From Rhizodiscina lignyota (lineage: Eukaryota; Ascomycota; Dothideomycetes; Aulographales; Rhizodiscinaceae), in assembly GCA_010015805.1 (NCBI GenBank), contig ML978141.1, forward strand, positions 124,001 to 188,000: DNA of 64,000 nt, written 5' to 3'. Positions 9,086-62,010 of this stretch are shown piece after piece (position 1 is the first letter of the stretch; every line of letters begins with the position of its first letter). Made by a program: the position numbers and the translations under genes. The notes beneath the pieces are model-generated. The model had not been told where the DNA came from. It was given only the letters and a program-made list of their open reading frames with translations, and made no database searches.

Positions 9086-9290
9086 CCTTGGGAAAGCGTA
9101 TACCTTGAGATTCCAGAGAATTTGGACAGGTGACAGTTACGATAGTCATATGCATGAATGGCAGAACGGTGATTGCATTTGAGCGAGAGAGAAATTTAAT
9201 TTTGCTTTCAGCAATACCCTTGTCTCTCAAATAGCCGAATGAAGGTGCGGAACAGATTCAGTCAAGATCTCTGCTCACAAGCAACGTGTC
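9086..9290. other. Short 3' flank
   Basis: Tail-to-tail gap between the permease and the minus-strand relic/F-box locus. Nothing recognisable is present. Confidence 0.4.
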
Positions 9291-13517: not shown

Positions 13518-14694
13518 TGTTCCTGCGTGTTATGAATAGCTCAGTTCTCCATGTCTTCTTGCGGATACTGCAACGCCTCCACCATCTCAGTTGGATTGGT
13601 ATATAGACAGAAACTGAGGGCTATCTTCACGCGGAACCTAGAAATCCCTTTCTTAATATCATGTTTGTGATGATGTCGTATTGAAATTGTACTGTAATTC
13701 GGAAATATAATCCCTTTGCATCCAGAGAGCGACCCAATCAAGTTAAGCCCAAAATCGTGTCCGGCTCATCCTCGGTTCAGCCACTGGACAAGCCAGGAAA
13801 GCCTCCGCTGCGGCTGAGATTCGACTTCCTCTTCTCCATTTCCATCTCACTCGCCCTCAGTGTCCGTTTCTCGGCCACGGCGTTGCTTACCACCTATTAA
13901 TTCACAATTACCTTTGTACCTCCGCATATCGTCGCTTCCAGCAGCTCGTATGAGCTGGCTCTAGGATCCCAGAAATGACTAAAGCTACCCCTAGATCCTT
14001 CATATTTCAGAGTATCATACACCGTATACAGTTCTCATACGGCGTTTGATTTAGAGCATAGCGCTTCAAGATGTTCATTTTATAGTCACTCTTCTTTTCC
14101 AGCCCTCGCCTTTCACCCATCAGAAGGTCGACTCCCTTTAATTCGTCTGAGTCCATTTTACTGAACTTCCTTCTTAATTTTTCCTTCATATGTTTTCTAT
14201 TAACTACCGCATTTGGTTGATTTCGACCGAGCCAGCTCTCGCCGTGATACCGTATTATAATCCCGAACCGATCTTTTAACTCTCTAGCCGCAGCCGAGAA
14301 CTAATACGCATATAGTGGATACATATATGGTACCGGTACGTTGTATCATATTCACGAAAAAGAATATCTCTGATGCAGCTCAGGAAACGGTTGAGGGAAG
14401 GAAACCTAGGATACTACAGGGCCATATTCGATCGAATCCGGTTCATGACACTCGACAGGGATCCACTCGCCTCCATCCTTTTCAGCATCGGTATGCTGCG
14501 GAGCCTGTGGAGCTCGATAATAAGATGGCGTTGTATCAAAACAATTCGACGTGGAGTTTCAGCCTTTCCAGGAAGCAAACAAATGTCGTTGTCCGCAGGA
14601 CTTTCAGGAGTCGGATCCAGGAAAGGAACACGCTTGCAACGGATGTTGACATACTGATATCTGCTACAAGAAGTCTCACAATGTGTGCAGGCCT
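13518..14694. other. Convergent spacer, AT-richer, no gene recognised
   Basis: This lies between the 3' ends of the MFS gene and a Zn2Cys6 regulator. It is AT-richer than its flanks from about 13870 to 14340. Small frames (13541-13741, 14007-14189, both minus) have no recognisable content. A decayed repeat copy is possible but not demonstrable from the window. Confidence 0.4.
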
Positions 14695-17084
14695 TCATCT
14701 CTGCCACGTAGTCCACGCTGCATCATTCTCTCCTTCATTCCCGGTGGTTCTCATCAGGCTCTCGAAGAAAGCCATATCGACGCCTTGGAACGCCCAGTCC
14801 TCCCCTCCAGCGATCAATCCAGGATACTCTCCAGGTTGTGAAAAAGGATCCGATAAACTGTTCTGGAGTTGTGGCGGGCAGTGCGTAGCGATATCTTTCG
14901 GGCCAGCGGCCGGGATTGAAGATTCTCCGGATTGTACCTGAGTTCCTGCATAAATATCTGGGCCCTCTTGGGACATCCTCGAGGGTGCCTCGAATTGGCA
15001 GTGACTAGTCGTGACCGGTGTCATCATCCTAACATCTGGAATTCCACCAGACTCCCCAAGCCCTGAGGGATGCTTCGGAGGATCTGTACTGGTTGTGCTG
15101 GATTTGTCCACCACCTGCAACTGAAGTGAGCGATTAGCTGTCGCAGTAGCTCGTGGTTTGGGGACCTCCTTGCTCATTCTATCACGGGCAATCTTGATTA
15201 TGCCAAAATAAGGAATATGTACGGTCACGACAGCATCACCATCCTGATTTTGTATCTCCGTCTCGGTCCCTGCTTCTTGCACGCTCACTCTTGCAGTACC
15301 AGATGAACAGCCATCCGCCGTCTCAACCTCGACAGTCAACAGTCGGCGTAGCAATTCGGCGCTCTGGGCACTGAGTGCATCTGAATTGAGACGATTAATC
15401 TCTTTCATATTCTCCTGCGTCTGCTCAATCATTGCGCGATCACTGAGATACTGGTGAGCGAGGATATTCTCCGTCTCTGAGTGATGACTATCAAGGTGGG
15501 CCAAGAGCAAGGTCATGGCGGCCATGAGGGCGAGGAAGTCAATGGTGCGACAACTAAAGGCGATCCGATTGAAGCTGCGTAGTGCGATGAAGCGGGAGAG
15601 CACCTCCCGCGAGGCGTTCACACAGGTGATTCGGGAATACTCGTATTGACGCTCGGCCGACGAAGAGCGAAGCATGTAAGGCAGATGGAGCTGGTTGAGG
15701 AGATTGTAATGGAGCACCTGCGCGAACAGCCGCCGAATTTCCCAGAACACGGCCTGCGAATCAGTTGAGGCAATACCCAGATTCAGTGCCAACCACCACT
15801 TGCTGGGGAGGCTCCTGGCTGCTCTCTGAAGCTCCATATCGAGGGTTCGCGTCAGGGCGAGGTCATGGGAGCTGGGGTTCGATTCGTTACGCTCCAGGAT
15901 CCGAGAGGCGAGAACGCAATGCATTCGCTCGAGGCATCCCATAGGAGTATCGTTTGCAAGCATTGCATCGGAGGCCATGCTGCGATCGAGACAGCCCTGT
16001 GGAAGGCCCAACATGAGACACAGATGGCGATCTAGAAAGACGATTCGAAACCACATGAGCTCCGGATCATATTTCGTCTTGGGGTCAAGTACCTGATGTC
16101 GTGTTTGACTATCTAATCGGTTGAGTCCCATCAGCTGTGCAATACCCATGGCTTTCCGGCACGCTACCCAGCTTCGTCGAAGATTCCCGACATTCATCTG
16201 ATACATGCTCTCAAGCATGACGCACTCCAGGCCTTCGATGCTGCCAAGAAGCTCGTCATTTGTCGTGATGAGACTATGAGCAAGACCTGCTAACCGTTCC
16301 TTCATGGCTCGTGGCGATTCCGACAGGCCTTTTATCTCCTTGTGAATATCAGGATGAAGATGCTGCAGGAAGCCGGCAAGCTGGAGCATATGCCTCGATA
16401 TCAGAACAGGATGCTGATTTGGTTTAGGAATCTCCAGCAAGGTTTCGGGCGTTTTCAGACCATTCTGGCCGAGGCTGGCATATGACATTGTCAATATTTC
16501 ATGGGCGAGGACAGAGGTGTGACGGCTGGCTTTGCATATCCTCTCCGTATCCTCTCGCGATGGCAGTGATTCATGCAAGAACCAAGACAGCCTCTGGTAC
16601 CCAGGAAGAGCATCATTGCTGGTTATATGATACTGGTGGAAGTGGTCAGAAGTCGTTACACGCTATCGGAAAGTCGGATACGAACATCGGAAGATTTGTA
16701 CAACGCCAGATATCGAGCAGGCTCTGAGCTCCTTGAGAGGGGAGTGAGAATGTCAAAGTCCGCCCTTCTACCTCCCTCACTGGGCGTCGTGGGTGTTCTT
16801 TCATCATGCGCAACCAGAGTTTCAAGTCTCACAACGTCGGCACCCATCCTATCGGTCTTGTCCTTGGAAAGGGAGATCTCCTCAGGGAACTCCTGGCTGA
16901 CACATTTGGAGCCCCGTCGCCGACAGCCGTTGCAGGTCGTACTAACGAGCGGGTTGAATATACACTTCATCTTCCGTCGCTTGCATTCCCAGCAGCTGTG
17001 GGTCCCCTTCCGGACCTTTCTACGCTTCGCGTCCGATTGGGCTTGATCTGAAGCCGCAGAACGTGGTGTAGATATTGTGTTCAT
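14695..17084 (-). CDS. Zn2Cys6 transcription factor with Fungal_trans-like region
   Basis: Exons 17084-16702 and 16618-14695, 768 aa. The zinc cluster is canonical, C31-x2-C34-x6-C41-x9-C51-x2-C54-x6-C61, preceded by a basic KRRKVRKGTH stretch. After an 83-nt intron (branch-like CTGAC) the frame continues with YQRLSWFLHESLPSREDTERICKAS and the long helical middle-homology region with MLQLAGFLQHL and GLPQGCLDRSM. The C-terminal 170 residues are polar and disordered. It is a nuclear regulator and starts about 600 bp from a divergently transcribed DHA2 transporter. The shared promoter contains two CGG/CCG palindromes (17109-17124 and 17248-17264), so direct control of the transporter and of itself is plausible. 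The intron borders are inferred from frame and motif continuity. Confidence 0.85.
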
Positions 17085-17108
17085 GCTTTCAACGGAGTTG
17101 GTCTACCG

Positions 17109-17124
17109 GCGGAAACGATTCCGC
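17109..17124. promoter_or_regulatory. CGG-N8-CCG palindrome, candidate Zn2Cys6 site
   Basis: GCGGAAACGATTCCGC has perfect 6-bp arms (GCGGAA/TTCCGC) around ACGA. It lies 25 bp upstream of the regulator's start codon. Zn2Cys6 dimers typically bind inverted CGG triplets, so this could be an autoregulatory site. Symmetry seen; binding inferred. Confidence 0.45.
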
Positions 17125-17247
17125 TTGCTGGTAGATCACGTACTCGACTCGCGAGTGCTGAAGACGAAAAGTCAAATGTCAGGAGGAGGCCGGCGGAGGA
17201 AGGAGTCCTGCCCTTTTTAACGACGATCTCCGGATGACTAAGCACGG

Positions 17248-17264
17248 CGGTCGAAATTCAACCG
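17248..17264. promoter_or_regulatory. CGG-N11-CCG palindrome, Gal4-like spacing
   Basis: CGGTCGAAATTCAACCG carries inverted CGG triplets 11 bases apart with partly symmetric TCGAA/TTCAA inner arms. It is in the divergent promoter between the Zn2Cys6 regulator and the second MFS gene. Candidate regulator site only. Confidence 0.4.
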
Positions 17265-17687
17265 GGAGCACGGCGGACGAATATGCCCATCAGCCAATAG
17301 CAACTCGCCATCATCGAGACGGCCAGGAGGTCGCGGCGGCCGAATCATGGAAAAGTCCAAGATTCTCACATGTGGATAACATGATACAGTGTTTATTCAT
17401 GTCGGCCGTGTCGTCAATATCTCTACGCGGCTGACAGAGAAAGGTGACAAATGTGCCCCCGACGCTTCCTGCGTTTCTCTGTTCTGTGAGCTGCTCATCT
17501 GCATAAATATCGACATTGTGTTATTTGTGCTTTTCCCAAGTGCCTACTCGTATGTACAGCCAGCTTGAATGCGCTGATTTGTACGCTCATACTTCGTAAT
17601 TTACTCGAGAATTGTCCTCCTGAGTCAATAGATCCTCATCCACTCAACAGCCCGACAAGGCATAGCGACGAGGATCAGCTAAGAAAC

Positions 17688-19530
17688 ATGTCTTCCCAGA
17701 GTTCAGACTTGGAGAGCAACAAGAAAGCCGAGATGGAAACAAGCAACCCGACAGTCTCGGTTCTCTCGACCAGCAACGGCGAGCACTCCATGGCCGACAA
17801 CACCCAAGAGAAGCAAGATAGCGCTGTCCCCTTGCCTGCTGGTGACGAAGAGCCCGAGTACGCGACAGGCTTGCGGCTTTTTCTCACCATGTTCACCATT
17901 CTCATGAGCTCTCTGCTCGCTGCCCTCGAGATTGGAATCATCGCCACCGCAATTCCCGGCATCACCGACGAGTTCCACCGACTTGAAGACGTCGGATGGT
18001 ATGGTAGCGCCACTTTCCTCGTCGCCGGTCCCTCTTCGCCAATGTGGGGCAAGCTGTACAAGTACTTCAATGTCAAGTACGCTTATCTTTCCTCTGTTGC
18101 ATTATATTTGCTTGGGAGCATTGTGGCTGCAGCGGCTCCAAATAGTGCTGCCGTCATAGTTGGCCGGGCCATTCAAGGTTTGGGAGGCTCAGGTACTCTC
18201 AGCGGCTCCCTCTCATCATCAATTACGTGGCCGAGCCCAAGAGACGTCCTATGCTGATCGGCATCTGGATGGGCGTCTTTATGATATCGACTATTCTCGG
18301 ACCTATCATTGGCGGCGCCTTCACAAGCGAAGTTTCTTGGCGATGGTGTTTCTGGATCAGCCTGCCGCTCGGAGCTCCCATCGTTGTCCTTAGTTTACTC
18401 TTCTTGCGGATGCCGAAACATATAAAACCAGTCCCGGCCACGTGGAAAGAGATCTTCGGACACCTTGATCTTCCGGGTTTCAGCTTGTTACTCGCCTCGC
18501 TTGTATGCTTCACCTTGGCACTGCAATGGGGTGGTCAGATCAAAGCATGGAATGACGGCTCTGTTATCACCACATTGGTCCTCTGGGTATCCTTTACCAT
18601 TATTTTCTTCATCGTCGAGGGGCTCCAGGGTGCCCGCGCCATGGTTCCGTTGAAGCTACTTAGACCACGAATAGTATGGACTAATGCATTGTACTGCTTC
18701 ACGTGAGTATCTAGTCCCCTATTATTCATGTTATTCCCAGTATCTGCAACAGAGATTGACCAGTCCAGCTCCAATTCGGCTTTATTCCAGGTTATATTCT
18801 ATCTCCCCATCTACTTCCAGTCCATCCACGGCAAGTCAGCAATCATGAGCGGCGTCGACAGCCTTCCTTTCTTGGCCTTCTTTGCTTTGGGAGCCGTGGT
18901 TAGTGGGGCGGCCATTGGGAAGACACTTCTCCTGCAGCCATACCAACTGACCAGCGCACTCTTGATGACTGCTGGCATGGCCTTGTTTTACACCATGGAT
19001 GTCGACTCATCTCAAGCTCGGTACATTGGCCCTGAGATCCTCTTTGGATTTGGTCTTGGCCTCAGTAATCAAATCCCAATGACCGCCGTGCAGGGTTTCT
19101 CTAAGCCTGCAGACGTGACAAGCTCTACTGGTATCATTTTCAGTGGGTGTCCAACAAGAATATGCATTCTGCTACATATTTACTATTTCCACTAATACCC
19201 TTACCAGTGTGCCAACCCCTCAGTGGCGCTTACTTCCTCGGGATAGCGCAGTCGATCTTCGCCAATCGAATGCTGCAGACACTTGAGACCACTCCATCCA
19301 ACGTCGACGCTGTCAAGGTCTTAAACACGGGCGCTTCCGAAATCCAGCACGTCTTCAGTGGTGGAGATCTGGCCGCTGTGGTCGGTGCTTATATGGTTGG
19401 GATCAAGGACGTATTTGCCTTTGCTCTGGCTGCCTCGGCATTCGCTGTCCTCCTTGCTTTTATGATTCCTTTCAAGAAGCTTCCTGATTATGACAGCAAG
19501 AAGACGGAGGAAAAAGTGGCGACTGTCTAG
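17688..19530 (+). CDS. MFS transporter, DHA2/AflT-like, apparently frameshifted
   Basis: Exons 17688-18702, 18769-19142, 19208-19530 (ATG chosen before MSSQSSDLESNKK; an open frame extends to 17565). The protein is a 14-helix drug:H+ antiporter-like protein: MSSLLAALEIGIIATAIPGI in helix 1, GRAIQGLGGSGTLSGS, then INYVAEPKRRPMLIGIWMGV, ILGPIIGGAFTSEVSWRWCF (motif C) and, across the last two introns, NALYCFT/SNSALFQVIFYLPIY and GIIF/MCQPLSGAYF. Within exon 1 the frame changes at about 18207-18216 (the run CTCCCTCTCATCATC): upstream and downstream halves both match the family but lie two bases apart, with no room for an intron. It is therefore either a recently disabled gene or an assembly/sequencing slip. 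Relatives export secondary metabolites or drugs. Divergent from a Zn2Cys6 gene. Confidence 0.75.
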
Positions 19531-20017
19531 GCCTAGCGAGGAACAACTTGATTATCGCGGCAGAAGCCTGATTTCCTTCGAAGTTACCATCATAAAAAGG
19601 ACTTTCCAGATATGTTGTTCACCCAGGCGCGCATTTGGATCCAAGTTGTGTGAGAGTAGCACTGTAACGGTTTAAACCACCTCGGCGGATATTCTCTCGT
19701 TACGGCGGGCACGCCCGTTTATCAACATGTTATGCAATGGTGCAGCTGCCATATTAATGTTGATACCGTTCCGGAGAACGTGTCGAAAGTTTTCTGCCAC
19801 CGATCCCATACATTTATATCAATGGAAACGATAGGATGTGTACGGACGAGGCTGAGCTTTGATCCATCAGGAATTTTTCTTGCAATAGTAAAGCTATGAA
19901 GTCTGTGGACTTCCAGTCCGGGTAATAATTTTGAACTTAGACAATTACGTGCATTGAACAGTAATGAGTAAACTCAGTGCCCTGTCGTTCTCTGCTTGAC
20001 GGCGGAGCTACTCGTAT
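19531..20017. other. Convergent spacer
   Basis: About 490 bp between the 3' ends of the second MFS gene and the NmrA-like gene. It holds a small inverted repeat CGGGC-AC-GCCCG near 19706. No coding content seen. Confidence 0.4.
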
Positions 20018-20803
20018 CTAATTGACTTTCTTCTCGCTCCCTGCTAGTCGACTCACGGCTGGCATCTTTCGTATCCACTCGTCCGCACCACCCTCGGCTG
20101 CGTCGACGAGCCATCGGGCCAGTGCTCCTCTCTTCTGTTGGATACTCCAACCAGGCGCGCCTATCCATCCCACGAACGTCTTGCCATCATTCCTGTCACT
20201 CTGCCAACTTGCCTCATCGTCACCCCCGGGGATATATGCGATGCGGTAGACGGTCCAGTCGAGACTCGCGGCTTCTCGCTCAAAAACATCGGCAATGGCT
20301 AGAACGTTGCTGTAGGCAACATTGTAGAATATTCGCACCACCAGCTTTAACACGGTTACCATAAAGGACCAGTGGTCTTCGGGCCGCGAGACCGAACCTG
20401 TACTCATGGCTAGGATACGTCGGACACCGTGCTCGTGCATCAACGGGAACACAGAGGATCGGTATATGTCCGCGTAAATGGTAGGAGGAATATTGAGATT
20501 TTGAATGGTGGGACCAAGAAGCGAGATTATGGCGCAGCTCTGGCTAATGGCAGTGGAAAGCAAGGTAAGGTTGTCCATCTCGCCCTTGATGACCTTAATG
20601 ATAAACGTTAGAACATTACACGTGGTCAAGATTTATGTTGAAATGATCACCTCGATGAACGGGCTTAACTTCAAGTCCTCAGGAATTTTAGAAGGGTTCC
20701 GGACATAGACGATGGTCGCACGCTTGCGGTAATTGAGCTCGCGCAGGACATTGATGCCAGTGGGTCCAGTGGCACCAAGAACAAGAATTTTGGAGCCCGC
20801 CAT
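20018..20803 (-). CDS. NmrA-like/atypical SDR NAD(P)-binding protein
   Basis: Exons 20803-20651 and 20593-20018, 242 aa. The N-terminus ILVLGATGPTGINVLREL is a Rossmann beta-alpha-beta with a GATGxxG dinucleotide motif; next comes a basic switch segment (VYVRNPSKIPE), then GEMDNLTLLSTAISQSCAII and RRILAMSTGSVSRPEDHWSF. This is the layout of NAD(P)H-binding atypical short-chain dehydrogenase/NmrA-like proteins, which act as oxidoreductases or redox sensors. The 57-nt intron joins SPFIE to VIKGEMD. Head-to-head with a Zn2Cys6 gene 244 bp away, which suggests co-regulation. Substrate unknown. Confidence 0.82.
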
Positions 20804-21047
20804 TGTGACTCGAGATATTTCAGAAAGAACATTATGGGCAAATGGAGTTGCAGTCAGTATATATGTACTGCGAGATGGGAAGAGTAAAGGAGTCGCAGGG
20901 ACTATTTCTAGCCAATCAAGACGCTCCATGGTGCCAAGGCTGGCCGCGCGCGAGAGACACCGCGCGGTCCTCCCAGCGCGCGCTGCCTGACTCCGGCAGA
21001 CACCACGATATCCAGCGAGCACAACAAGTCTAACTCTCCGATGCTCC
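20804..21047. promoter_or_regulatory. Compact bidirectional promoter
   Basis: Only 244 bp separate the start codons of the NmrA-like gene (minus) and the Zn2Cys6 gene (plus), so both must be driven from here. It contains a GC-rich block around 20941-20990 with repeated CGCGCG runs on both sides. Confidence 0.5.
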
Positions 21048-22898
21048 GTGATGACAGATCCGAAAACTTCAACCGGCTGCTGGACGTGCCGGATCCGCCG
21101 TAAGGGATGCGACAATGCGTTTCCAGTCTGTCGAGGGTGTGAGGCGCTAGAGATTAGGTGCTACCACGAAAAGAGCAAGCCAGAGTGGATGGACAGTGGG
21201 AGCAGGCAGCAGGAGATGGCTCAAAAGATTAAAGCTGAGATCAAGCGTAATGCGAGGCGTCGTCAAGGCAGGCAAAAAATCCAGACTATTGTGCGAGACA
21301 TTGACGAAGCCACTCCCCTAAGCTCGACTCACCTGGATTTTAATTTGCCATCCTCCGCCAACCCAATAGCTTCTTCCCGCCAAACTCCTTCGACTCTCGG
21401 CTCCGAGATAGAACATGATGGCATTCCGTCCTCAGCAACAAGCACAATGTATGAGCGGAGCGCCTCGCTGGATCTCTCCGACAGTAGACCCAACCAGCAG
21501 GATTCAGACGAATCGACTATACAAGATGCTCCAGTGCCAAGTCTTTCTCTTCCGAATAAGCTTGAATTGATATTTGTCATGGCATACTTGGACTATGTCT
21601 TCCCTGTCTCATTTCCATTCTATCGACCTACCATACTCGAGGGCGGTCGCGGCTGGCTACTCAGCTCCATCTTGGGGAACAAGTGCCTCCACCATACTGT
21701 TATTAGCCTGACTTCGTACTTCTTTTCTGTTGTTGAGGTCAATCCTCAGTCCGCCAACCTGATATGTGGATCATACACCTGGGAAGCCCTGCAAAGCCAG
21801 ACAGAGCTAGCTCTAAAGAAGGCACAGCGTGATCTGCATGAAATCAGCTGCAATGGAGTTCACCAAAACATTTTGGGCAGCGCAAACCTGATAGAAAGCA
21901 TTGTAAATCTGCTGAGTGTTGAAGTCATCCTCGGCTCGAACGAAAACTGGCAAATGCACCTTGATGCTGCAAGCTTCTTATTCCAGCGGCTCCTCGACTC
22001 TCACAGGAAGGACGATCCATACTCCGCATTCTCACATATTCTCGAGCTAGTTGACGCCTTATCCTTCCGAAGACCTCCCGATTCACCCCTATGGAGTCCT
22101 GAGCAAGCTGCCTTCCGCTTCTTTTCCGCGATGCTTATATTCAATGACATTGTCGCCAGTACATCCCTCGAGCAATCCCCAAAACTATGCGAATGCTACC
22201 CTCATTTGCTAGGAAATGACCCACATCCAGAGCCAGACCCGTCACTGCAGCTGGCCGACTTTATCGGCTGTCAAAACTGGGCGTTGATAGCAATAGGTGA
22301 GATTGCCGCGCTCGATGCATGGAAGAAGTCCATGAAACAAATCAATCAGCTCTCTGTACCGGAATTGGTACAGCGCGGCGCTGTAATCGACCAGCATTTA
22401 CGGGACGGCCTGGCAGTTCTTGACAAGCCTGAGTCGCAAAATAGAGAAAAGAAACGTGTACCTATTACACAGCTCGACACTCTACTCTCTCATACACCCT
22501 GTGCACCAGAAACTATCAACGCCATCACCCACATCTGGGCTCTTGCGGCGCGCTCTTATCTTCTCACCACAATTTCGGGATGGCAAGTCGCCAACGCTGA
22601 ACTCCGCTCCAACGTTGCGCAAACGATTGGCCTCCTCACCGACTTGGCAACATCTCCTACGTGGATGCGCACGCTTGCCTGGCCGTTGTGTATAACGGGA
22701 TGCTTAGCTGATGAGGGAGAAGAAGTATTGTTGCGCCAGCTGCTCACTGACATGGGAGGCTTGCAGGCATTCGGTACGCTGCGTCAGGCTCTGAGCATCA
22801 TGGAGCATGCGTGGCGCAATCGCACGCAGATTGATACAGAGAATTGGGACCTCGCGGCGTGCCTGAGATGTTTGGGTCATCGGGCTCTGTTGGTGTGA
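21048..22898 (+). CDS. Zn2Cys6 transcription factor, Fungal_trans_2-like
   Basis: Single exon of 616 aa; the start is ATGATG at 21048, either Met is usable. The zinc cluster is at the extreme N-terminus: C11-x2-C14-x6-C21-x6-C28-x2-C31-x6-C38, followed by KPEWMDSG and a basic, glutamine-rich helix (EIKRNARRRQGRQK). The long C-terminal half is helical with LDYVFPVSFPFYRPTILEGG and HMDAASFLFQRLLDS-type text, matching Fungal_trans_2 regulators. The last residues LAACLRCLGHRALLV are typical of the family's end. It may regulate its head-to-head NmrA-like neighbour. No intron was needed, unlike the other regulators here. Confidence 0.88.
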   Translation: MMTDPKTSTGCWTCRIRRKGCDNAFPVCRGCEALEIRCYHEKSKPEWMDSGSRQQEMAQKIKAEIKRNARRRQGRQKIQTIVRDIDEATPLSSTHLDFNLPSSANPIASSRQTPSTLGSEIEHDGIPSSATSTMYERSASLDLSDSRPNQQDSDESTIQDAPVPSLSLPNKLELIFVMAYLDYVFPVSFPFYRPTILEGGRGWLLSSILGNKCLHHTVISLTSYFFSVVEVNPQSANLICGSYTWEALQSQTELALKKAQRDLHEISCNGVHQNILGSANLIESIVNLLSVEVILGSNENWQMHLDAASFLFQRLLDSHRKDDPYSAFSHILELVDALSFRRPPDSPLWSPEQAAFRFFSAMLIFNDIVASTSLEQSPKLCECYPHLLGNDPHPEPDPSLQLADFIGCQNWALIAIGEIAALDAWKKSMKQINQLSVPELVQRGAVIDQHLRDGLAVLDKPESQNREKKRVPITQLDTLLSHTPCAPETINAITHIWALAARSYLLTTISGWQVANAELRSNVAQTIGLLTDLATSPTWMRTLAWPLCITGCLADEGEEVLLRQLLTDMGGLQAFGTLRQALSIMEHAWRNRTQIDTENWDLAACLRCLGHRALLV

Positions 22899-46067: not shown

Positions 46068-48855
46068 TCAATGGCCCTCGATCTCGTCTCCAGCGACATG
46101 CTCGAAACCCTGCGAGAAGAAGATGCGCGCTGGCTTCGTATCCTTGTTCTCGATACTGTAAAAGTTCCCTAGAAAAATTCACTAACCGTTAGTAACCGCT
46201 CTACAAGATTGATCAAGATTTTTCGCGCTGTGCGCGATCCCGAACGCCCAGAAGATATGCGATCCAGAAATAGTGCTCCGCTGAGAAAGAAGCGGATACA
46301 GCACATAAAAGCGGTCCATCACCGCCATTGTGACAGCTGGCAACGACAATGTCGTCAGGCACCGGCCGTTACACAAAGTCAAGCCACAGCCTCGCTGTTC
46401 GCACGGTTGCCTCGCGCAGGACCCAAAACAATACCGCAAGTTCTGTGTAACGCGACACAGCGTCTCGTCTACACCAGGAACCGGGAAATCATTTTGATTT
46501 CTGCGCGGGTACCGCGCGTCATGCAGAGCGGGAATGTGCAGTGGGGGTGTCGTTGCCACCCTGCCACTTGGTCGGGGAAGCATAATGCGACGACTGTCGT
46601 ACAAGAGACAATAGATGTGTACAATGAGAAGTCGTAGGCGAAATAAAGGAGGGATGTGATATATTGATGTTCACCGACTGTTTGACATGGCGTTTGCGCG
46701 TGACGGAGCGAAGAGAAAGGTGCTGCAAGAGGGAGATTGAGACGAAAACGACTCTGGACGTCTGGGCACGCGCACTGAGGAGACTGAAGGAAACATTGAC
46801 TCACCTCTGGGGACCTGCCACACACCTCCTTTGCTGATCGAAAACTCCAAGTCTCCGACTGTGACTAGCACCTTGCCCTCATGCAAGAAGAATATCATCT
46901 GCATCTTGCGCGAGTTCTTCGTGCGTTTGAAGCCGCCAGGAGGAATATCCACAATGCCAGCGCCGAAAAAGGGTAGTGTGAGAATCTTTGCGTAGCTGAA
47001 GCTCGAGCCCATGACATCGCGCGTCTGGATAGCATTCGCTGCAAATGCAACCTCTGTGGAGAGGTTAGTGCCTCAATTCGCGCACATGTAGGGAATACAA
47101 ACTGGATACATACCCATTTCAACATCATCATCCTCAATCGTCATGTTGTACTCTGCGTCCCACGCGCTCACTAAGCCTGTCAAAATGCCGCCTTCCTCTT
47201 CCCACTCTTCCAGATCGCCTTCGTCCTCTTCTTCAATGTCTTCCATCATCTTCGGTTTTGATTTTCTGCCGCCACTGACCTTCCGCTTAGGAGGTTCCAC
47301 CGTTTCTGCCCGGACCACATCCTTGATGGTACCGTCATAGTCGCGGTTGATTCTCTCGCCGCACCACCATGCAACGGGTTGAATCGACGTGCGTCCAAAG
47401 CGCGTCGTAGTCGTCCCTTGCTCTTCCAATGGCGTGCCTTGACGTAGAATTTGGAGGCTACGGGGCTTGCTCCCTGCTCGAGCAGTCCTCGGTTTTGGGT
47501 CCACTTCGTCATCTGCCACGTCTTTGGTGCCGCTGCGCTTTTGAGGGGCTGGACGAGCATTTGGGTCGCGCTCTTTGGGCCCTTTGGAAGCATTCTTGGC
47601 AGATCGCCCCGGTTTGCGCTTTTGAGGCTTCGGTTGAACCGACGAGCCGCGGGCGCGCTTGGATGGTCTTACTTCCTCATCCTCTTCTGTCTCATCTCGA
47701 TGTACATCGAGCTTAGCCTTTCGTGACGATTGAGGCAGCTCCGTGGTCATCTCGCTGTGGTCGTTACTTGGTAATGCACCAGCCATGGTATCTTCCTGGA
47801 TCACAAGCAGAGAAGGGTCTACCGTCGACTCATCAGATGTCGCTTGAGCCACTTCCACCGGTTTTGCGGCACTCTTACGAGGTCTACCGCGTTTTCGTTT
47901 GACTGACTCTGTTGTAGCAGGCGTGCTATCTGTTGTTGGATTATTCTCGGCATTGGTTTTTGGGGCAGTTCGCGGTGTTGATTGAACAAGTAGATCCGGC
48001 AGATGTGTCGTTTCGTTCAAGTTCACCTCTGTAGCATCACCGCCGTCGAGAATTTGAATTGAATCGTCTTCACTCGGTGCGAGCTGTGCGCCTTCCTGTT
48101 CATTCTTGGTTTGTGGTTCCCCTGCATCCAACGGTTCCTGTACGGGAGATGGCTGGATGTCAACTACTTCCGGCGCCGTGTCTACCACAGTATCTTCTGC
48201 ACCAGTTGTGCTACTAATGCCGTACATCTTAGAAGGACTGGTCTCGACACTGGCCCTTGGAGCGTCCTCATCAAAATCCAACCTGCGCCTTACAGAAGCG
48301 ATTTGTTTGGTACGAATGGGTGATCCAAGAGAGCGGCGCGACTCTGAATGTGGCGCTAGAGACGGATGCCTTTGCGGAGAGGAATGAAGGGTTGTCTTGA
48401 TTGGGGATCGCGCCTTTGGGGGTGGCAGTGAAGTTCTTGCGCTACGCGTCAATCGTCGTGCAGATAGTACGTCTATCGGTTCTGGTGCGGAGCCTGTCAA
48501 ACATAGGATTGTCAGCACCTTCGCATACTCTCTTGGTCTGTCTGCAGCGCATAACACATACTCTGCGCAACTTCCATAGACTCAGAGGAAATCTGTTGTA
48601 TGTTCTGTATACTGCGCTTGGGCGGAGACTTTTCTGGAGAAGAGAAGATCGCATCGAGGGGCTCGAAGCCATGCTCATCGCGTCTCCCGGTATCCTTTAC
48701 GGTGATGCCGGTCTTTCTGTTAATTGCATAAGCACTGCTGGCCTGTCTCTGCAATGCGATGGTGAATTGTAAGCATACCTTCCCTGAACCCCAGGTTCGA
48801 AGTAGACGTTCTCGCGCTTCTTGCGCCCTGGTGTCGCGCCGGCGAGCGGCGCCAT
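46068..48855 (-). CDS. mif2: Kinetochore protein Mif2/CENP-C
   Basis: Exons 48855-48779, 48716-48562, 48493-47114, 47053-46805, 46168-46068; 653 aa. The N-terminus KRENVYFEPGVQGR/KTGITVKDTGRRDEHGFEPL with the IFSSPEKSPPK motif is the conserved Mif2 N-terminal region that contacts the Mis12/MIND complex. A KRKRGRPRK AT-hook lies near residue 275-285 and the CENP-C motif (RFGRTSIQPVAWWCGER) near 440-460, which binds the CENP-A nucleosome. The C-terminal cupin dimerisation domain starts with EVAFAANAIQTRDVMGSSFS, includes MIFFLHEGKVLVTVGD, and finishes NFYSIENKDTKPARIFFSQG in a small last exon. The last intron is 636 nt, so this exon is easily missed. Essential centromere scaffold, nuclear. Confidence 0.9.
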
Positions 48856-49928: not shown

Positions 49929-51679
49929 ATTGATTGCAAAGAAGCACGAAACTTGAATTCTGCTTTTGTCGATTTTCGTTCTGTTGGAATTGGATACTAT
50001 ATACCTACAACATCTCTTCTTATATGCTACAAACTTTCATATTGACTGCAATACAATCCCGAGGCGGCGATTAACTCGGCCGAGTTCGCTACAACGCTGT
50101 TACATGCATCCCGGCCGTGAATGCCTCGTACTAAGCTGAACAATGTATGGCAGTAAGTTGTTACTAAGCATTCAGACCGACGCTCTGCTCGAGTTTCGGC
50201 GTTGAGAGTGGGGCTGTCCGCCTCCAATATATACAAGTAGTTAAAGTCGACTGTCGTGCTTCTGCCCAGCGAGGATTCCAGCTTCACGGAAGCTCCGGAC
50301 TTCGTAAAACAAGATCCGTCGACATGTCTATGGTAGCATTGGCTTCATTAGTAATCTTTTACTTTGCATTCGGCTTCTCCGATACTTCAATGAGCGTTAA
50401 CCCAAAAACCCAAAGAGCCAACGATGGCTCTGCTCTTGGACTTCCAATATCCAGCCGGCCGATTTAAGGGAAGCGTTTCTTGCACCCTAGCGCTACCTCG
50501 GTCTCATTTCGAAATATTCTTCTAACGCAGTCAATACCTGCCCGCTGATTCATCACCAGAGGGTTGAGTTCTTCAAAGTCGTTAATAGTGGTGGAGAAGC
50601 GCCACACAATGCATCACGCCCATGATGGCACACTCTTTCGGTCGGGTTCACCATCGAGCTCTCAGCCCGGTTTCAACGTCGTACCGTGACTTCAGGGGCC
50701 ATTTGAGAGACTTCGGTGACATCGGACACAATGCTAAATCCCGCCAAGACGACTCCGCCCAATACCAAGGCATCCGCGCGAGACGTCACGCAAGCATTAA
50801 TGGCTAAGATTTGCTCTGTCTGGCTTGAATTATCTTGACTCTGATTGGCACTGTCTTACCAAGAGCCCCTAATGCCTCGAAATGTGATTAAATGTGATTA
50901 AAAGCGGTCAAAGGGGATGACATCGCGCTCATTTTGACTTTCCCGGGGCCAGACCATTAGTGGCTTTCTCCATACTCCGAAGACGGCCAAGAAGGCTATC
51001 ACGATGCTTATGACAACTAGCATTGATACTACTGCATTTTTCGTCTTCCCCGTGGGTGTTTACCGCACCCTTTCACATCATGATGGGCGAATGACATTGC
51101 TTCTCTCATTCACGAACCTGGGCTTTGTTACTTCTTCAGGAGAGCTAAGGCAGTGGATTTGCTAAGAGTAAGCAGGGCAACACCTATGGATATTTCCACG
51201 GCAGTGCCCAAGATGCGGAGTGTCGAGAGTTGATTGACGTGGAAGAGCTTGAAGGCATTGCGTTGCCCTTCTCCCCTGTTTTGGACCGAAGCCTTGATTG
51301 GCATCGCTTTCAGCGCTTTTATGGAAGCCAGGAGCATCTTTCCCACGTGGCTGCTCTAGAGTTTCAAGTGTGTAAGGCGTGATCGACTTGTCTTGGACTG
51401 ACGCGCGTTGTCTTCGTTGTCGGACATCAGGTCTTCAGGTAATTGCTGCGATGATGGTGACATCGCACGCCACGAAATTAATAGTAACAGGCGTTGAGGA
51501 GAAATCGACATCGAGGTTTCTGCAATACTCGTACATTCGATGTCAGGTATAAGAGGGACTAGGTCGCCAGAGCCTGGCCATCATAATCGAATAATTTCTG
51601 CATAGTCAATCAGTCAAATATATTCCTCAATTCAGGTTTATTGAAATTCATTTTGTGCGGAACGCCCACAGTGTCTACT
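49929..51679. other. Gene-poor stretch of 1.75 kb
   Basis: No family-level match was found. A 72-codon minus frame at 51128-51346 contains an amphipathic start and one hydrophobic helix (LGTAVEISIGVALLTLSKST); it could be a small membrane protein or a fragment of one, at low confidence. The right end contains the promoter of the repeat-protein gene. Confidence 0.35.
51128..51346 (-). CDS. Possible small single-helix membrane protein
   Basis: The 72-codon frame starts MGKMLLASIKALKAMPIKAS and ends with a hydrophobic segment LRILGTAVEISIGVALLTL and a lysine pair. The bias towards Lys, Leu and Ala looks more protein-like than nearby frames. It shows no recognised family and may be chance or a fragment. 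Confidence 0.2.
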   Translation of the reverse strand: MGKMLLASIKALKAMPIKASVQNRGEGQRNAFKLFHVNQLSTLRILGTAVEISIGVALLTLSKSTALALLKK

Positions 51680-52216
51680 ATGCGTTTTATTGCTCTTACA
51701 CTTCTTGCCGTCCCGGCTCTTAACGTCGTCGCCACTCCGGTCGCAAGTTCTGGAGTGCAAAATGCCGTTGAGCCTCGCTCCGCTGAGTATCCTGTATGTC
51801 TTAGCCTAACGGTTTTCATTCGACCGTTACCGCTCCGAAGCAAATGCTAACACATCATTAGACTTTGTCGAAGAAGAATCATGGGGCTGATCCTCTTCCA
51901 CACCATAGTGGTCTCGATGGGAGGTCGGCGAAGCATGGGGCGGATGACCAATCATAGTGGCCTTGATGGAAAGGTGAAGAGGAAACATGGAACCGATGAT
52001 CCTCTTCCACACCACTCTGGCTTGGATGGCCGATCTGCTAAACACGGTGCTGACGACCCTGTGCCACATCACAGTGGGCTCGACGGCCGTTCGCCCAAGC
52101 ACGGCCACGGTGCCGATGATAACCTCCCGCACCACTCTGGTCTTGATGGACGCTCAGCCAAGCATGGTCATGGTGCCGACGACAACCTTCCACATCACTC
52201 CGGTCTTGATGACTGA
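51680..52216 (+). CDS. Secreted tandem-repeat peptide precursor
   Basis: Exon 1 (51680-51793) encodes a clear signal peptide, MRFIALTLLAVPALNVVA, followed by TPVASSGVQNAVEPRSAEYP. After an intron beginning GTATGT at 51794 (default acceptor 51861) come six repeats of about 19-21 residues with the core HGADDPLPHHSGLDGRSAK (variants insert HG or replace P by N). Repeat 1 is in one frame while repeats 3-6, ending SGLDD and stop, are in another; repeat 2 is shorter. An alternative acceptor at 51973 would join the signal peptide in frame to VKRKHGTDD and four repeats. Dibasic KK/KR pairs occur before repeats 1 and 3, suitable for Kex2-type processing, but the inner repeat borders are RSAK/RSPK. It resembles a processed repeat peptide or a small cell-wall protein; no known family recognised. 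Confidence 0.6.
51868..52213 (+). repeat. Six 57-63 bp coding tandem repeats
   Basis: Copies begin near 51877, 51931, 51980, 52037, 52094 and 52157. Each carries a CAYCACWSYGGYYTBGAYGG core coding HHSGLDG. Nucleotide differences are mainly at third positions, which suggests selection on the peptide; the second copy is shorter than the rest. The last two copies share an extra His-Gly codon pair. Confidence 0.75.
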
Positions 52217-53614: not shown

Positions 53615-56600
53615 TCACTTGAACCTCTTCATGTACTTGTCCGCCGTAAGGAAGTCCAGCTCCATCCACTGCTTCTTCAACGCCATGTGCTGCTCCGTCA
53701 CCTCATGCACGATGACGACGGACCGACGGATCGTGCGTCTCGAGTAATACGCGTGCCGGTGAAACCACTCGATGATGCGCTCTGTAGCCGCATATGGATT
53801 CTCAAGGCCTTCGTAGTCTGGCATGTCGTGCGAGTCTAGGGACAACAATGCCGCGTTGTCACCAGGTCGGGGGACGTTCTCCACCCTCCACGTTTCCGAA
53901 GGGTTGAACTTGTGGTATACATGCCAAGTGATTTCATTGCGGGTGACGTGCTTGTCGTCCTTGGGGAAGCCATTGATCTTTCCATCGCGCAGATCTGCAA
54001 GCCACAACTGGAGGTCAGGGCGGCCGGCCAGTATCCATGTCTTCTTTCCCCACTCTTTGCCCTTGTTCTTCTCTGCCACATGCTTCACAACCGTGAGTGC
54101 GTCTTTGGGGTAGTGCGCGAAGACTTCGTCGGTGATGAAGACGATGCTTCCGCCAGGAAAGATCTTCTTGAAGATGAATTGATTCTCCGTTTGATACACC
54201 CAGCCATCTTCCTTAAGGAATTCATCATTGTTGATGGAGCCGAAAGTGAAGAAATTGCACTTCGAGTTGAGGAAGTACGACAGCTCCGGGATGGTGTAGT
54301 GTTTCCGGAGGGTCGGATGAGTGATGACAACTCCACCACGTTGATCATTCCGGAATAGCGCCTGCCAGCTCTTCCAAGAGCCCTTGACACCCATATGGTA
54401 CACCTTTGCGCCTTTGTCTTGCAGCATCCTTGTGAGGAGCTTGAGTTCGGCAGCGTGAGCCTCTGAGTCGAACATCAAGAAGAAGCGAGGAGCTAGGGGA
54501 GCATTTGGCCACTCGAGCAGCCTCTTAAAACCAACATCATCGATCCCATAAACAGTGTGCAAGACGCTCGCCATTTTGCCCTTGTCTGATCGCATCGATA
54601 TGTTACCTGCACTGAGGCCTCTGACGATTGATGTTTTGAGAGGGGCGCGAATATAGAATTGGAGCGCATGAATTGGGTCGTTCTTTGGTTTGAGGTAGGC
54701 CCATCGGTCTTGACGACTGGGGAACAGGAGAATCGCGAAGTCAGAATGCAAAATCAAGGCGCCGGAGTCGTTGATCTTGAGAGAGTCGCTGTAGACCTCG
54801 AGCGCTTCAGAAGAGGCGGGATCGTTCGGTTTGATTGTGCCAGAGGACAGGAGGTTAGTGGCATTGCCCTGTTCAAGTTAGTGGAAAGGTCCAGATGGTT
54901 GAAAGGTGGAATGGCGCATACCTCTTCCCAAAACACCCTGAAGTTTCCGGCAGTGCAGACCAACTTAACATCTAGCTTCGGCTGTTCGCCATAAGCGGCG
55001 AGAAGCAGAGATCGTGCTTCTTCGTTCAGTCCACCGAATTCCACCGGAATAGCTTGAAGTTGTCCAAAAATCTTCATGTCTGCGACAAACGGTTTTGTGA
55101 CAGGTCGATTTTTAGCTCTAGCCACATTTTCCGGAGAGAACATGTTCCTAAGCATTCGTTCCTCACTTGGCTTCAGGGCATCCGGCGTTCGGCGAGAGTC
55201 GTCAACATCGTGTTCCTTGTCGGGGTTGGTGGATGTGGCGCTCTCTTCAAGTCGGGCGCGGACTTTCCCGAGAGTCGGCACTGCCGCAGTGTTAGTAATT
55301 GGTAAATTCGTCAAGTGAAACATTTCCATGAAACTCACTTTCTCCGCCCCAGGGTCGGCAACTTAGAGGAGGTTCAGCAATCTCGTCGCAAACCACATGG
55401 TAGAACTGACACTGATCTTCTGGCATCTTGCATCCACGGATATTTTTATGTGTCTGGCATATACCAACAGCCCAGAAGAAGCAGGTTTTGTTCGCCTTAA
55501 AGCCGCCGGTGAAGGGATCTCGTGGAACGTGTGCGCTGTCTCGTTCGAAAAATATGCGTTGAGATGGAGCCATCAAGCCGGCCATCAGAAGACCAGTGTT
55601 CCAATGTGCACCATCGCACTCGTCGACAGATTTGTAACATCCTTTTCCGTAGTACCAGAACGCGCATGTAAATGTCCTTCGCCCGCCTGGGAGGGAAACC
55701 TTCAGTGAGTCGCCTCTATGCGCCTGAGCCTTGAGATTGAATGAGGCCGTATAAGGCGTGTCCTCGTGGAGGAAGGAGCACTCGTTATCCTCGTGATCTC
55801 GACACTTTCCTTCGGATCTCCAGGCTGGGCATGTCAGAGGTACTTTGTCGTCTGTTGTCAAATCCAGCCTCTCAGGTATCGGCAGAGTTTGTTCAGGAAC
55901 ATCGGCTCTTGACCATGGCCATCGTGGTTCATTGCGCTGGTTGGAGGTTGTTGCCGCCTCTGTTGTCAGGTCAAGTGGCATGAGAGCTGGTCGAAAGGCA
56001 CCAGTCTCTGGATCAAACGTCTCATGGTTTTCAGCTCCTCCTGGCGGGGGTTTCTCGTTCACTCTGGCGTTGTGAAACCTTGTCAGTTCTGTATGAGTTT
56101 TGGGGAGGGCGGGCCTGGAAGGCTCATGGTTGTCAGCAGTCCTCCTCCGCGGAGGCGCTGTACGCCTATTCGTAACTGGAAGTGGTTTATCCCAGTTTGA
56201 AAAGATATGCTCGCCGTCTTTTACACGCCGTCCCGCCATGTCTGTTGAGAGATCTGAAGTTTGTGCAGCAGGAGTGGTGGGTGTGTTGTTTTGTTGTAAG
56301 TTTTCTGGAGATGTTGTGGTGGGGGTTTGTTTTGGAGGGGTTCGTGTTGTTGTTGTTGCCTGGCCAGTTTTTGCCGCTGTGCTTGGAGCGTTGCTCAGTG
56401 CAGTCTGAGGGAGTTTCTTGGCAAGTGTTGGTGAGGGGGCAAATTTTTTGGCTGGACGCTCTTTCGGCTTGGGAGGGGGAGTGTTAGAGCGGTTTCTCTT
56501 CCTCCGCTTGTCCTTAACGCTGCTGGTTCTCAGCTCCTCCATGAGCGAGTCGTCGCTAAGAGCAGCCTCTTCTCTCAGAGGCCGGTTCGCGCTCTGCCTT

Positions 56601-57190
56601 GACATGTTCCGCTGTAGTGTAGCAAGCGGTACGTCATCCTCATCCTCACTCTCGGCAACAACAAAACCGCCTAGGTGGGGGTGGCCATCGAGCTTCTGTT
56701 TCTTTCGTCTGCTCAGTGGAATATCGTCGTCCGAATCCTCCTTGCCTGCACCATCCGCCCTCTCATCAGAATGGGTGACAAACAGCGCATCGGACGACTC
56801 TGATGGTAGCATGCCCAGTCGTTTCTGCTTAGCAACTCTACGCTTCTTCCGCTCACTCTTCCCAGCTTTGACCCTCTCCACATTGTCCAACCAAGCCTCA
56901 ACGTCAAAAGGCTGGTCGATGGTTTGCTTCACACGTAACTGCTTCTCGTGCCACAACAGAACATACTCCTCTGGAATGCCGTCTGCTGGTTCCCAGGTGG
57001 CACGTTCAACTCCGTAACCCTCCCATTGGATCAGGTATTCCAGCATACCATCTTCCTCGGTCACCCGTTGAGCAAGAATCTTGTCGACGATATAGTCTTT
57101 ACCTTCGCCATAGTTGCTTTTCTCTTCAGTCCAGGTCGAACTGTATAGCGAGATGCTATCTTCGTCCTCGTCTGGGAGTCTGGGCGGCAT
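53615..57190 (-). CDS. Chromodomain and CCCH zinc-finger protein
   Basis: Exons 57190-55339, 55280-54922, 54868-53615; 1154 aa. Residues about 31-85 are a chromodomain (YIVDKILAQRVTEEDG, LEYLIQWEGYGVERATWEP) with the aromatic residues that cage methyl-lysine. A 350-residue basic/Pro-rich linker follows. Three CCCH-type fingers lie at about 453-475 (CPAWRSEGKC...CSFLH), 505-527 (CAFWYYGKGC...CDGAH) and 567-597 (CFFWAVGIC...CQFYH). The last 500 residues are a folded region with APRFFLMFDSEAHAAELKLL, GGVVITHPTLRKHYTIPELS and SRRTIRRSVVIVHEVTEQHM, which I cannot place in a family. Introns carry textbook CTAAC branch sites. Likely a heterochromatin or RNA-linked silencing factor; similarity to Chp1-type proteins is inference from the chromodomain alone. 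Divergent from the Rab11 gene. Confidence 0.82.
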
Positions 57191-57769
57191 GGTTGAAAGG
57201 AGAAAGTTGACAGCAATTGGAGGTCAATAAAGGATTGAAGATGCAATGCCAGCGTCAAGTTTGTAGTACGGACAGCAGCGACGAGGGTATTTCCATCACT
57301 CGGTGTACTCAGCGTATTGGAGTTGGTCCGGCTCGTGACATGTATGTATGGAGTAGAGACGGCAAGTGAAGTGATTAAAGCCACACGAGTGAAAGCGTTC
57401 GGCGTCTCTTGAGAACGTCCGTCTACTCCACCAGGGAGAGACTACCGAGTGAAGGAAAGGAACGAAAGAAGACGAAAAGCGATCAGACGATTTCGAGTGC
57501 GTGATTAGAAGGCGCGCAGAGACGTATGCAGCGTCGGTCACGTGAGGCAGCCACTGATCGGCGTCGCGGCACCCAGGCTGGCACCAAGCCGAAGGCGGTC
57601 GAGCCGTGCATCAGAGGCCACCACCACCAGAGCTCAACTGCCTATTTTGACCCCAGAAAGTCGACCTACCTCGTGCTCTCTGAAAACACTCACGCAACTC
57701 TCTTGTGCCGCTACTCGTCGGTCGCCTTACTCTTTTGCCCCTTATACGCAAGTTCACGGCTGCGCAGTC
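57191..57769. promoter_or_regulatory. Bidirectional promoter region
   Basis: This is the 579-bp gap between the start codons of the chromodomain gene (minus) and the Rab11-like gene (plus). Plus-strand CT-rich stretches (57650-57760) precede the GTPase start, as in many housekeeping genes. Confidence 0.5.
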
Positions 57770-59543: not shown

Positions 59544-62010
59544 ATGTTGAGACGACAGTTGTTGCGGCAGCTGCGGCGGCCGAACAGGCTGACGAGTCTC
59601 AATGCCGCGAGGGCTTTCTCTGCGACATCGCAGCGCCCTGCGGAAGTGGAGCTCACCATTGGTATGTTGTGTGCTCATCTAGCTGGGAGAATTGTGTGCT
59701 AATGAGACCTCAGATGGCAAGAAAGTGTCAATAGAGGGTATATTGACCTAATCCTGTTCCTCATGATGCAATCGCAGAACTAACCGTCCCCGCAGCCGGC
59801 TCTGCCCTTATCCAAGCATGCGAGAAAGCAGGCGTAACCATCCCACGATACTGCTACCACGAGAAACTCCTCATTGCCGGAAACTGTCGTATGTGCCTCG
59901 TCGAGGTCGAGCGCGCTCCAAAACCCGTTGCATCATGCGCGTGGCCGGTGCAGCCAGGGATGGTGGTCAAGACAAACTCTCCAATGGTCCACAAGGCGCG
60001 GGAAGGTATCATGGAGTTCCTGCTTGCAAACCATCCGTTGGACTGCCCTATTTGTGATCAGGGCGGCGAGTGTGACTTGCAGGATCAATCCATGCGGTAT
60101 GGCGCAGATAGAGGGCGATTCCATGAAGTTGGTGGGAAGCGTGCTGTGGAAGACAAGAATATTGGACCCCTCATCAAGGTACGACAAGAAAAACGATGAA
60201 ATCGATCTTGCTATTGACAGCACCAGACCTCGATGAACAGATGTATTCACTGCACACGTTGTATCCGTTTCGCTAACGACGTTGCCGGTGCTCCTGAACT
60301 TGGATCCACTGGGCGTGGCAACGACCTCCAGATCGGCACCTACCTCGAGAAGAACCTTGATTCTGAAATGTCCGGAAACGTAATCGATCTCTGCCCCGTT
60401 GGTGCTCTCACATCGAAGCCGTATGCCTTCAAAGCAAGACCCTGGGAACTATACCACTCTGAATCAATAGATGTTCTGGATGGGCTTGGATCGAACATCA
60501 GGGTCGACACAAGGGGCATGCTGGTCATGCGGATACTCCCGCGACTAAATGATGACATTAATGAGGAGTGGATCAACGACAAGTCTCGGTTCGCATGCGA
60601 CGGCCTCAATACCCAACGCCTTACTGTTCCTCTAGTCCGACAAGACGACACATTCCAGCCAGCTTCATGGGAGCAAGCACTCGTAGAAATTGGTAGCGCA
60701 TACAAGCGTATTGCTCCTAAAGGTGATGAGTTCCAAGTCGTTGCTGGACACCTTGTCGAAACCGAGTCTCTCGTCGCGATGAAGGATCTGGCCAATCGTC
60801 TTGGCTCTGAGAACCTTGCTCTCGATCAACCGGGTGGAAATGCACCTGTTGCACATGGCATTGATGTCCGATCAAATTACGCATTCAACAGCAAGATCTA
60901 CGGCGTCGAAGAGGCAGATGTGATCCTCCTAGTTGGCACGAACCCAAGATGGGAGGCCGCTGGTCTGAACGCTCGCATCAGGAAGCAGTGGCTCCGCTCT
61001 GACCTCGAGGTTGGTCTTGTCGGAGAAGACTTCGAGTCAACCTTTGACTACGAGAACCTTGGCGCAGATGCCAACTCGCTGAAGAAAGCATTCTCCGGCC
61101 CCTTCGGCAAGAAACTCGCCGCAGCTCAGAAGCCCATGATCATTGTTGGCAGTGGCTGCGTCGAGCACGCAGATGCGAAGAACATTTTCGAGACAGTCGG
61201 CAATTTCGTCGAGAAGAACAAGGCCAATTTCCAGACCCCCGAATGGAACGGCTACAACGTCCTTCAACGCGCAGCCAGCCGTGCCGGCGCTTACGAAGTC
61301 GGCTTCACCGTTCCATCGCCCAAGGTCGCGGAGACGAAACCGAAGTTCGTCTGGCTCCTCGGAGCCGATGAGATTGACGAGTCCCAAATCCCCAAGGACG
61401 CCTTTGTCGTGTATCAGGGCCACCACGGCGACCGCGGCGCGCAAATCGCAGACGTTGTACTTCCTGGCGCAAGCTACGTAGAGAAGGCGGGCACATACCT
61501 CAACACCGAAGGCAGGGTGCAGATGACGCGTCCTGCGACAAGCCATGTTGGTGCGAGCAGGGAGGACTGGAAAATCATCCGCGCGGTGAGCGAGTACCTC
61601 GGCACGCCGCTGCCGTATGACGATATCGAGGCGCTGAGGGACCGTATGGAAGAGATCAGCCCGGCGATGAGGAGGTATGATGTTGTCGAGGGAACAGGGT
61701 TGGCGGCTTTGAGCAAGGTGCAGTTGGCGGATCAGAATAAGGGCGCGAAGGTGTTGGGTGAGCCGTTGAAGAAGGTGATTGAGGACTTTTACTTCACGGA
61801 TGTCATTTCGAGAAGGCGAGTGCCAGTTTCTTCCCATCCGTACGATTTCAGATACTAACATTTGTGTGTAGTTCACCGACAATGGCACGTTGCTCCGCAG
61901 CAAAGGCAACCAAGAACCCGCTGACGAACTTCATGGCACCCGGCGAGCCAGATCCTCAAGTCGAATATGGCCCAAAGGATTCACCAAGCGCATTGCAAGC
62001 GGGCGGCTGA
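59544..62010 (+). CDS. nuo78: NADH:ubiquinone oxidoreductase 78 kDa subunit (NDUFS1/NuoG)
   Basis: Exons 59544-59661, 59714-59737, 59796-60178, 60227-61815, 61872-62010; 750 aa, the usual length. An Arg-rich mitochondrial presequence ([20 protein letters not shown]) ends near FSATSQ. Iron-sulphur ligands are all visible: [17 protein letters not shown] for the 2Fe-2S cluster, [14 protein letters not shown] for the His/Cys 4Fe-4S cluster, and CIHCTRC with DLCPVG for the next. A molybdopterin-oxidoreductase-like domain without cofactor follows. It carries electrons from FMN through complex I in the mitochondrial matrix arm. Exon 2 is only 24 nt. The last intron begins GC (AG/GCGAGT at 61816); only this junction gives the conserved ending [20 protein letters not shown] and NFMAPGEP. 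Confidence 0.95.

Follow-up and report, generated by a model that had tools for sequence, protein, structure and literature searches.

A candidate gene for secreted His/Asp-rich repeat peptides in a filamentous ascomycete, with a frame interruption in the assembled sequence

Relation to KEPs and other repeat precursors

Kex2-processed repeat proteins (KEPs) are a published and very diverse class (PMC6339444; PMC7329392). As defined in PMC7329392, a KEP has an ER signal peptide and three or more tandem repeats, each 8 aa or longer, of which at least three lie between dibasic pairs (KR, KK, RK, or RR). The pipeline outlined in PMC6339444 requires that cleavage at KR/RR or at KK yield three or more similar fragments. 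The gene considered here lies at positions 51680-52216 of the window, the 64,000-nucleotide stretch analysed, which corresponds to C21:124001-188000 in a genome of 33.4 Mb and 29 contigs (Table 1). It resembles KEPs in its signal-peptide-like start, short pro-segment, and near-identical tandem peptides of 17-21 aa whose codons drift while the peptide is kept, as well as in having a leader in common with a KR-spaced repeat protein. It differs in that copies 3-6 are joined by G-R-S-A/P-K instead of dibasic pairs and in that the frame is broken within copy 2. Copies 3-6 provide at least three repeats of at least 8 aa in one open frame, but splicing at the best acceptor does not join this frame to exon 1. 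Fewer than three repeats lie between dibasic sites, and the one KK and one KR (within K-R-K) in the repeat region would give too few fragments for the pipeline as outlined in PMC6339444; by the dibasic criterion given in PMC7329392, the gene is not a KEP. The initial annotation held that the repeat fits no family, which is half true in view of this published class. The strings HHSGLDG, PHHSGLD, HHSGLD, GADDPLPH, and GADDNLPH were absent from the literature text searched, and KEP survey tables may list the unit.

From its introns, its Mif2/CENP-C gene, its STE2-type receptor, and its many UstYa-domain matches, we infer that the host is a filamentous ascomycete. The neighbours of the repeat gene resemble core genes (Mif2/CENP-C, a CAP-Gly protein, a chromodomain protein, a Ras-family small GTPase, and a complex I subunit), and the gene lies outside any obvious metabolite cluster. 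Other features in the window include an amino acid permease exon, two MFS transporter pieces, and a Fungal_trans_2 regulator (7962-22898), the Mif2/CENP-C kinetochore gene (46671-48581, minus strand), and the chromodomain protein gene (55292-57223, minus strand). By eye, the frame of the last may run on through exons 54754-55362 and 53615-54877, and a Pfam search of the latter (E up to 0.01) found no family. When the locus was used as a DNA query, its own position was the sole match. A pattern search for a bacterial relative matched 163 stretches, with one confirmed (L043, from a Caldilineaceae MAG) over PPPHHSGLDGRTPG; this match was judged to be chance because its frame has stops on both sides. 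The search for a relative on viral contigs matched 23 stretches by pattern, and none was confirmed.

Two better known precursor types have a comparable organization. Ascomycete alpha-pheromone precursors (MFalpha/ppg) also combine a signal peptide with repeats, and the initial annotation had likened the layout of the gene to that of fungal pheromone or repeat-peptide precursors. A gene for a STE2-type receptor is present in the genome (matches at C2:3034415-3035306). Pezizomycotina alpha-pheromones, however, are usually rich in Cys and Trp, whereas neither residue occurs in exon 1, the front of exon 2, or copies 3-6 of the window gene. The PYGxPxG motif is likewise absent, and the core is acidic, His-rich, and 17-21 residues long. 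PMC6339444 bears this out in part and also describes a PYGxPxG group in Pleosporales. Neither of its two Dothideomycete core types, which are relevant if the host belongs to that class, is present in the repeats. The genome's own alpha-pheromone, sought by pattern, gave one match against one in the reversed control, i.e., chance level. We regard an alpha-type mating pheromone precursor as very improbable, and the likeness proposed initially does not extend beyond layout.

A repeat precursor with a signal-peptide-like start is also found in dikaritin precursors (ustiloxin, phomopsin, and asperipin). Moreover, among the KEP types described in PMC7329392, G-3 and G-8 combine a di-His motif with neighbouring UstYa (DUF3328) genes, which favours a dikaritin/ustiloxin-type cyclic peptide (RiPP) precursor. 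In contrast to such systems, contig C21 has none of the 76 exon-level UstYa (PF11807) matches in the genome, such that a cyclised dikaritin is unlikely, and copy 1 and copies 3-6 have no Tyr or Trp to cyclise. Taken as a whole, we consider the RiPP identity extremely improbable. Several of the 76 matches are grouped on C2, C3, C7, C13, and C24, and the genome may have many dikaritin-type clusters.

Table 1. Positions of features of the repeat gene and of two genes compared with it. Unprefixed positions refer to the window.
Feature	Position	Strand	Remark
TATA-like box TATAAGAG	51548..51555	+	By eye; 132 bases upstream of ATG
Exon 1 MRFIALTLLAVPALNVVATPVASSGVQNAVEPRSAEYP: start codon, signal-peptide-like stretch, pro-segment	51680..51793	+	Similar leader at C14
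Phase-0 intron, 68 bases, GTATGT...GCTAAC...TTAG	51794..51861	+	C14 relative: phase-0 intron after leader (by eye)
TLSKKN, pro-segment with KK dibasic site	51862..51879	+	
Copy 1 HGADPLPHHSGLDGRSAK	51880..51933	+	Frame 2 relative to ATG
Copy 2: HGADD start in one frame, NHSGLDGKVKRK end in another	51934..51985	+	
Copy 3 HGTDDPLPHHSGLDGRSAK	51986..52042	+	
Copy 4 HGADDPVPHHSGLDGRSPK	52043..52099	+	
Copy 5 HGHGADDNLPHHSGLDGRSAK	52100..52162	+	
Copy 6 HGHGADDNLPHHSGLDD and stop codon	52163..52216	+	Stop 52214-52216
AATAAA	52278..52283	+	By eye; 62 bases downstream of stop
C14 gene (L038), KEP-like	C14:635399 down to ~634.5 kb	-	Signal-peptide-like start; exons by eye
Intact canonical KEP, eight copies of NVDSTSQAEWDGGGDFAPD[KR]R	C3 ~336.4-337.1 kb (L005 1482-2129)	-	

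Gene structure and the break in copy 2

The signal-peptide-like start at 51680, as annotated initially, can be recognized by eye: MRF is followed by a hydrophobic stretch and a VVA↓TP-like site. The intron looks canonical, with a GTATGT donor, a branch-like GCTAAC, and a TTAG ending at 51861. No Pfam family was matched by exon 1 or by the repeat piece. The initial annotation overlooked both this intron and a frame break. Its six repeats can be followed to the final stop codon, but one is broken and the lengths vary more than the 19-21 residues given (18, broken, 19, 19, 21, and 17 aa for copies 1-6). Copy 1 and copies 3-6 are in different frames: the frame of copy 1 meets a stop inside copy 2, and the remainder of copy 2 together with copies 3-6 is open in another frame. 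The single six-copy open frame described earlier is absent from the assembled sequence.

The outcome of splicing was listed for 11 AG sites (51840 to 51981) paired with the exon 1 donor. With the best, canonical acceptor (51861), the product has 69 aa and a single intact repeat, and only the AAG acceptors at 51973 (118 aa) and 51979 (116 aa) reach the long array. Based on the predicted splice site, the present product in this assembly is probably the 69-aa form. Since the copies appear to have long been held to one peptide (see below), the break must have arisen recently, be an artefact, or be bypassed by splicing. These explanations are not mutually exclusive.

An error in sequencing or assembly is possible, if somewhat doubtful. 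The gene would then be intact in the organism with all six copies translated, which is compatible with a repeat-peptide precursor. Consistent with such an error, no other decay is seen, copies 3-6 are free of stops, and the peptide sequence is conserved before as well as after the break. However, long neighbouring frames are open (e.g., 60218-61858 and 55292-57223), and the assembly here is therefore not generally error-ridden. Recent inactivation, with the gene now a pseudogene or null allele and its one-repeat remnant functionless, is somewhat unlikely. The break itself and the short product of the canonical acceptor point to inactivation, but past constraint was strong and further decay is not visible, and any loss would therefore be recent.

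The break may also be bypassed by splicing, either at a distal AAG acceptor or through a tiny 34-base intron. Use of 51973 (a 180-base intron) would place copies 3-6 behind V-K-R-K in the longer precursor, with a KR site immediately before the intact array. Acceptor 51979 likewise keeps the frame, and a 34-base intron at 51924-51957 (worked out by hand) would remove the break. However, fungi seldom use AAG acceptors or introns of 34 bases, the branch-site-like GCTAAC accompanies the 51861 acceptor, and the C14 relative seems, by eye, to have introns of ordinary length. A bypass of this kind is improbable.

Conservation and junctions of the repeats

The copies have a conserved core of HG-x-DD-x-x-P-HH-SGLD, and the changes among them are concentrated at third codon positions. 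Pairwise differences at codon positions 1/2/3 number 51/32/150. Of the 19 columns represented in four or more copies, all 19 vary at the third position, nine at the first, and six at the second (Fisher p 5e-6 for position 3 vs. the others, with columns and copies not being independent). The initial annotation had proposed comparing synonymous with non-synonymous change, and this comparison gave pS 0.87 and pN 0.15 over 15 copy pairs, which include copy 2 with its two parts placed by hand. Synonymous sites among the copies are saturated while the amino acids are kept; selection on the repeat peptide is therefore supported, in agreement with the earlier view that the peptide itself matters. Changes between copies are mostly synonymous, as had been stated, but are not confined to an HG insertion. 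Further variants are A/T, P/N, L/V, A/P, and the presence or absence of one D, and copy 2 ends with GKVKRK where other copies have GRSAK.

This codon-position bias matches the pattern of the intact canonical KEP on contig C3, all eight copies of which were retrieved by the NVDSTSQAEWDGGGDFAPD[KR]R peptide pattern. The differences among the eight copies at codon positions 1/2/3 number 7/16/328, each of 588. In both arrays the copies appear to be old and constrained to a single peptide, which speaks strongly against a tandem duplication that is recent and meaningless. Within copies 3-6, the longest word to recur has 17 residues, compared to a maximum of nine in 20,000 residue shuffles. Tandem Repeats Finder at its default score of 50 reported nothing in the window, presumably because the copies have diverged at the DNA level.

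The C3 locus has adjoining UstYa matches (C3:338264-338911, 339070-339850, and 341979-342269) and is therefore probably a dikaritin-type cluster. Two strings of the C3 KEP core had no occurrence in the literature text searched. Three weak matches of the window repeats on C3 (E 0.02-0.08) are an antisense artefact, being on the strand opposite to the intact KEP.

Among the 76 residues of copies 3-6, 14 are His and 13 are Asp. Copies 3-6 had no PDB match at E up to 10, and the repeat piece is short, repetitive, and probably disordered. The only dibasic sites of the gene are the KK before copy 1 and the K-R-K before copy 3, the latter holding the only KR of the repeats, at the end of copy 2. Thus, the dibasic pairs noted initially are found toward the front, but copies 3-6 contain no KR, RR, KK, or RK, and Kex2 release of 18-21-residue peptides is not supported in the form proposed. 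Four of the five inter-copy junctions read G-R-S-A/P-K↓H, and the junction after copy 2 reads G-K-V-K-R-K↓H (arrow: copy boundary). The genome has one match to the kexin-type P_proprotein domain (C5:221382-221642, E 1e-26). According to PMC9769878, KEP products obtained by heterologous expression were seemingly cut after a single Arg or ended in Lys; by analogy, release of the units by monobasic cleavage at the repeat junctions is possible.

The leader relative on C14 and the predicted products

A search of the whole 33.4-Mb genome with exon 1 (E up to 10) found two places, namely, exon 1 itself and C14:635289-635399 on the minus strand (49% identity, E 0.002). The reverse search with the C14 leader found the same two places, with the window gene at E 5.5e-4. 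In an ungapped comparison, 18 of 37 leader residues are identical, a level reached by none of 200,000 shuffles. Past the hydrophobic stretch, 8 of 19 pro-segment residues are identical, which was reached by 29 of 200,000 shuffles. However, the stretch of leader matched is short, and a shared composition makes signal peptides look alike; both points count against the explanation preferred below.

The two genes are also alike in the phase-0 intron that follows the leader (by eye for C14) and in having His/Asp-rich repeats. The C14 repeats are rich in His, Asp, and Lys (e.g., DFKKEHHFRPEKHHDDKKKFKDHKDHFKR) and separated by KR, and two of the KR sites lead into EAEP or EAEAEP, which resemble Ste13 spacers. 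Kexin-plus-Ste13 processing of this style is described for alpha-pheromones in PMC6339444. His and Asp account for 33 and 30 of the 140 residues of the C14 piece, and neither this piece nor copies 3-6 contain Cys, Trp, or Tyr. The first repeat block of the C14 gene appears to be duplicated together with its intron. The C14 gene differs from the window gene in its KR sites, its Ste13-like spacers, its Lys/Glu-rich units, and its additional introns, and the repeats of the two genes do not align. Searches of the genome with the repeats gave no C14 match for the window query (E up to 10) and no window match for the C14 query (E up to 0.001). One leader thus heads two unlike His/Asp-rich arrays. 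No third member of the leader/repeat family was found in the genome by exon-by-exon searches, which give lower bounds.

The C14 leader, intron phase, and KR-spaced repeats support the window gene as a putative offshoot of a KEP family. The secreted repeat-precursor layout given in the initial annotation is also supported because the sole leader relative heads a repeat protein with KR sites. The same relative, with its KR sites and Ste13-like spacers, points to cutting and argues against an uncut, secreted His/Asp-rich concatemer that would serve as a metal buffer or a zincophore-like or histatin-like polypeptide. Such a concatemer would fit the lack of dibasic sites in copies 3-6, their His and Asp content, and the GRSxK linker kept at four of the five junctions, and we regard it as unlikely, though worth serious consideration. 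Zinc binders secreted by fungi, for example Candida Pra1, compared here by description only, have secretion in common with the predicted window product, and Pra1 is likewise His-rich. The window product differs in being a short repeat protein without a Pfam match.

Our preferred explanation, which we put at about even, is a gene that contains an intron and encodes a secreted precursor of His/Asp-rich repeat peptides, with a leader shared with a KR-spaced KEP-like gene and inter-copy dibasic sites mostly lost or never present. The repeat-peptide gene is real and has been under selection, and its product is probably secreted; its monobasic junctions are unusual, and its frame is interrupted. Its predicted signal peptide would route the precursor into the secretory pathway, and kexin, judging from the motifs, would cut at the KK before copy 1 and the KR before copy 3. 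The repeats would then be freed singly at the monobasic G-R-S-A/P-K↓H junctions by kexin or a yapsin-type protease, as proposed on the basis of yapsin-type specificity, or else be secreted as short His/Asp concatemers. Speculatively, the HG-x-DD-x-x-P-HH-SGLD core would bind divalent metal ions or act as an extracellular linear signal. Judged by composition only, metal binding is predicted in preference to a pheromone or cyclic toxin. Our best guess is a precursor of linear secreted His/Asp peptides, maybe metal-binding, that is broken in this strain or assembly. More broadly, a family of secreted His/Asp repeat precursors, in which one leader heads two very different arrays and the window member has swapped Kex2 dibasic sites for a conserved monobasic R-S-x-K↓H to release small linear metal-binding or signalling peptides, is rather unlikely.

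Fungal repeat-peptide precursors are common, and their function is largely unknown. A leader-sharing pair with unlike His/Asp arrays would show how such precursors change cargo, and the window and C14 genes would supply two His-rich peptides as metal-binding candidates. If the monobasic junction is real, surveys based on dibasic sites would miss such genes.
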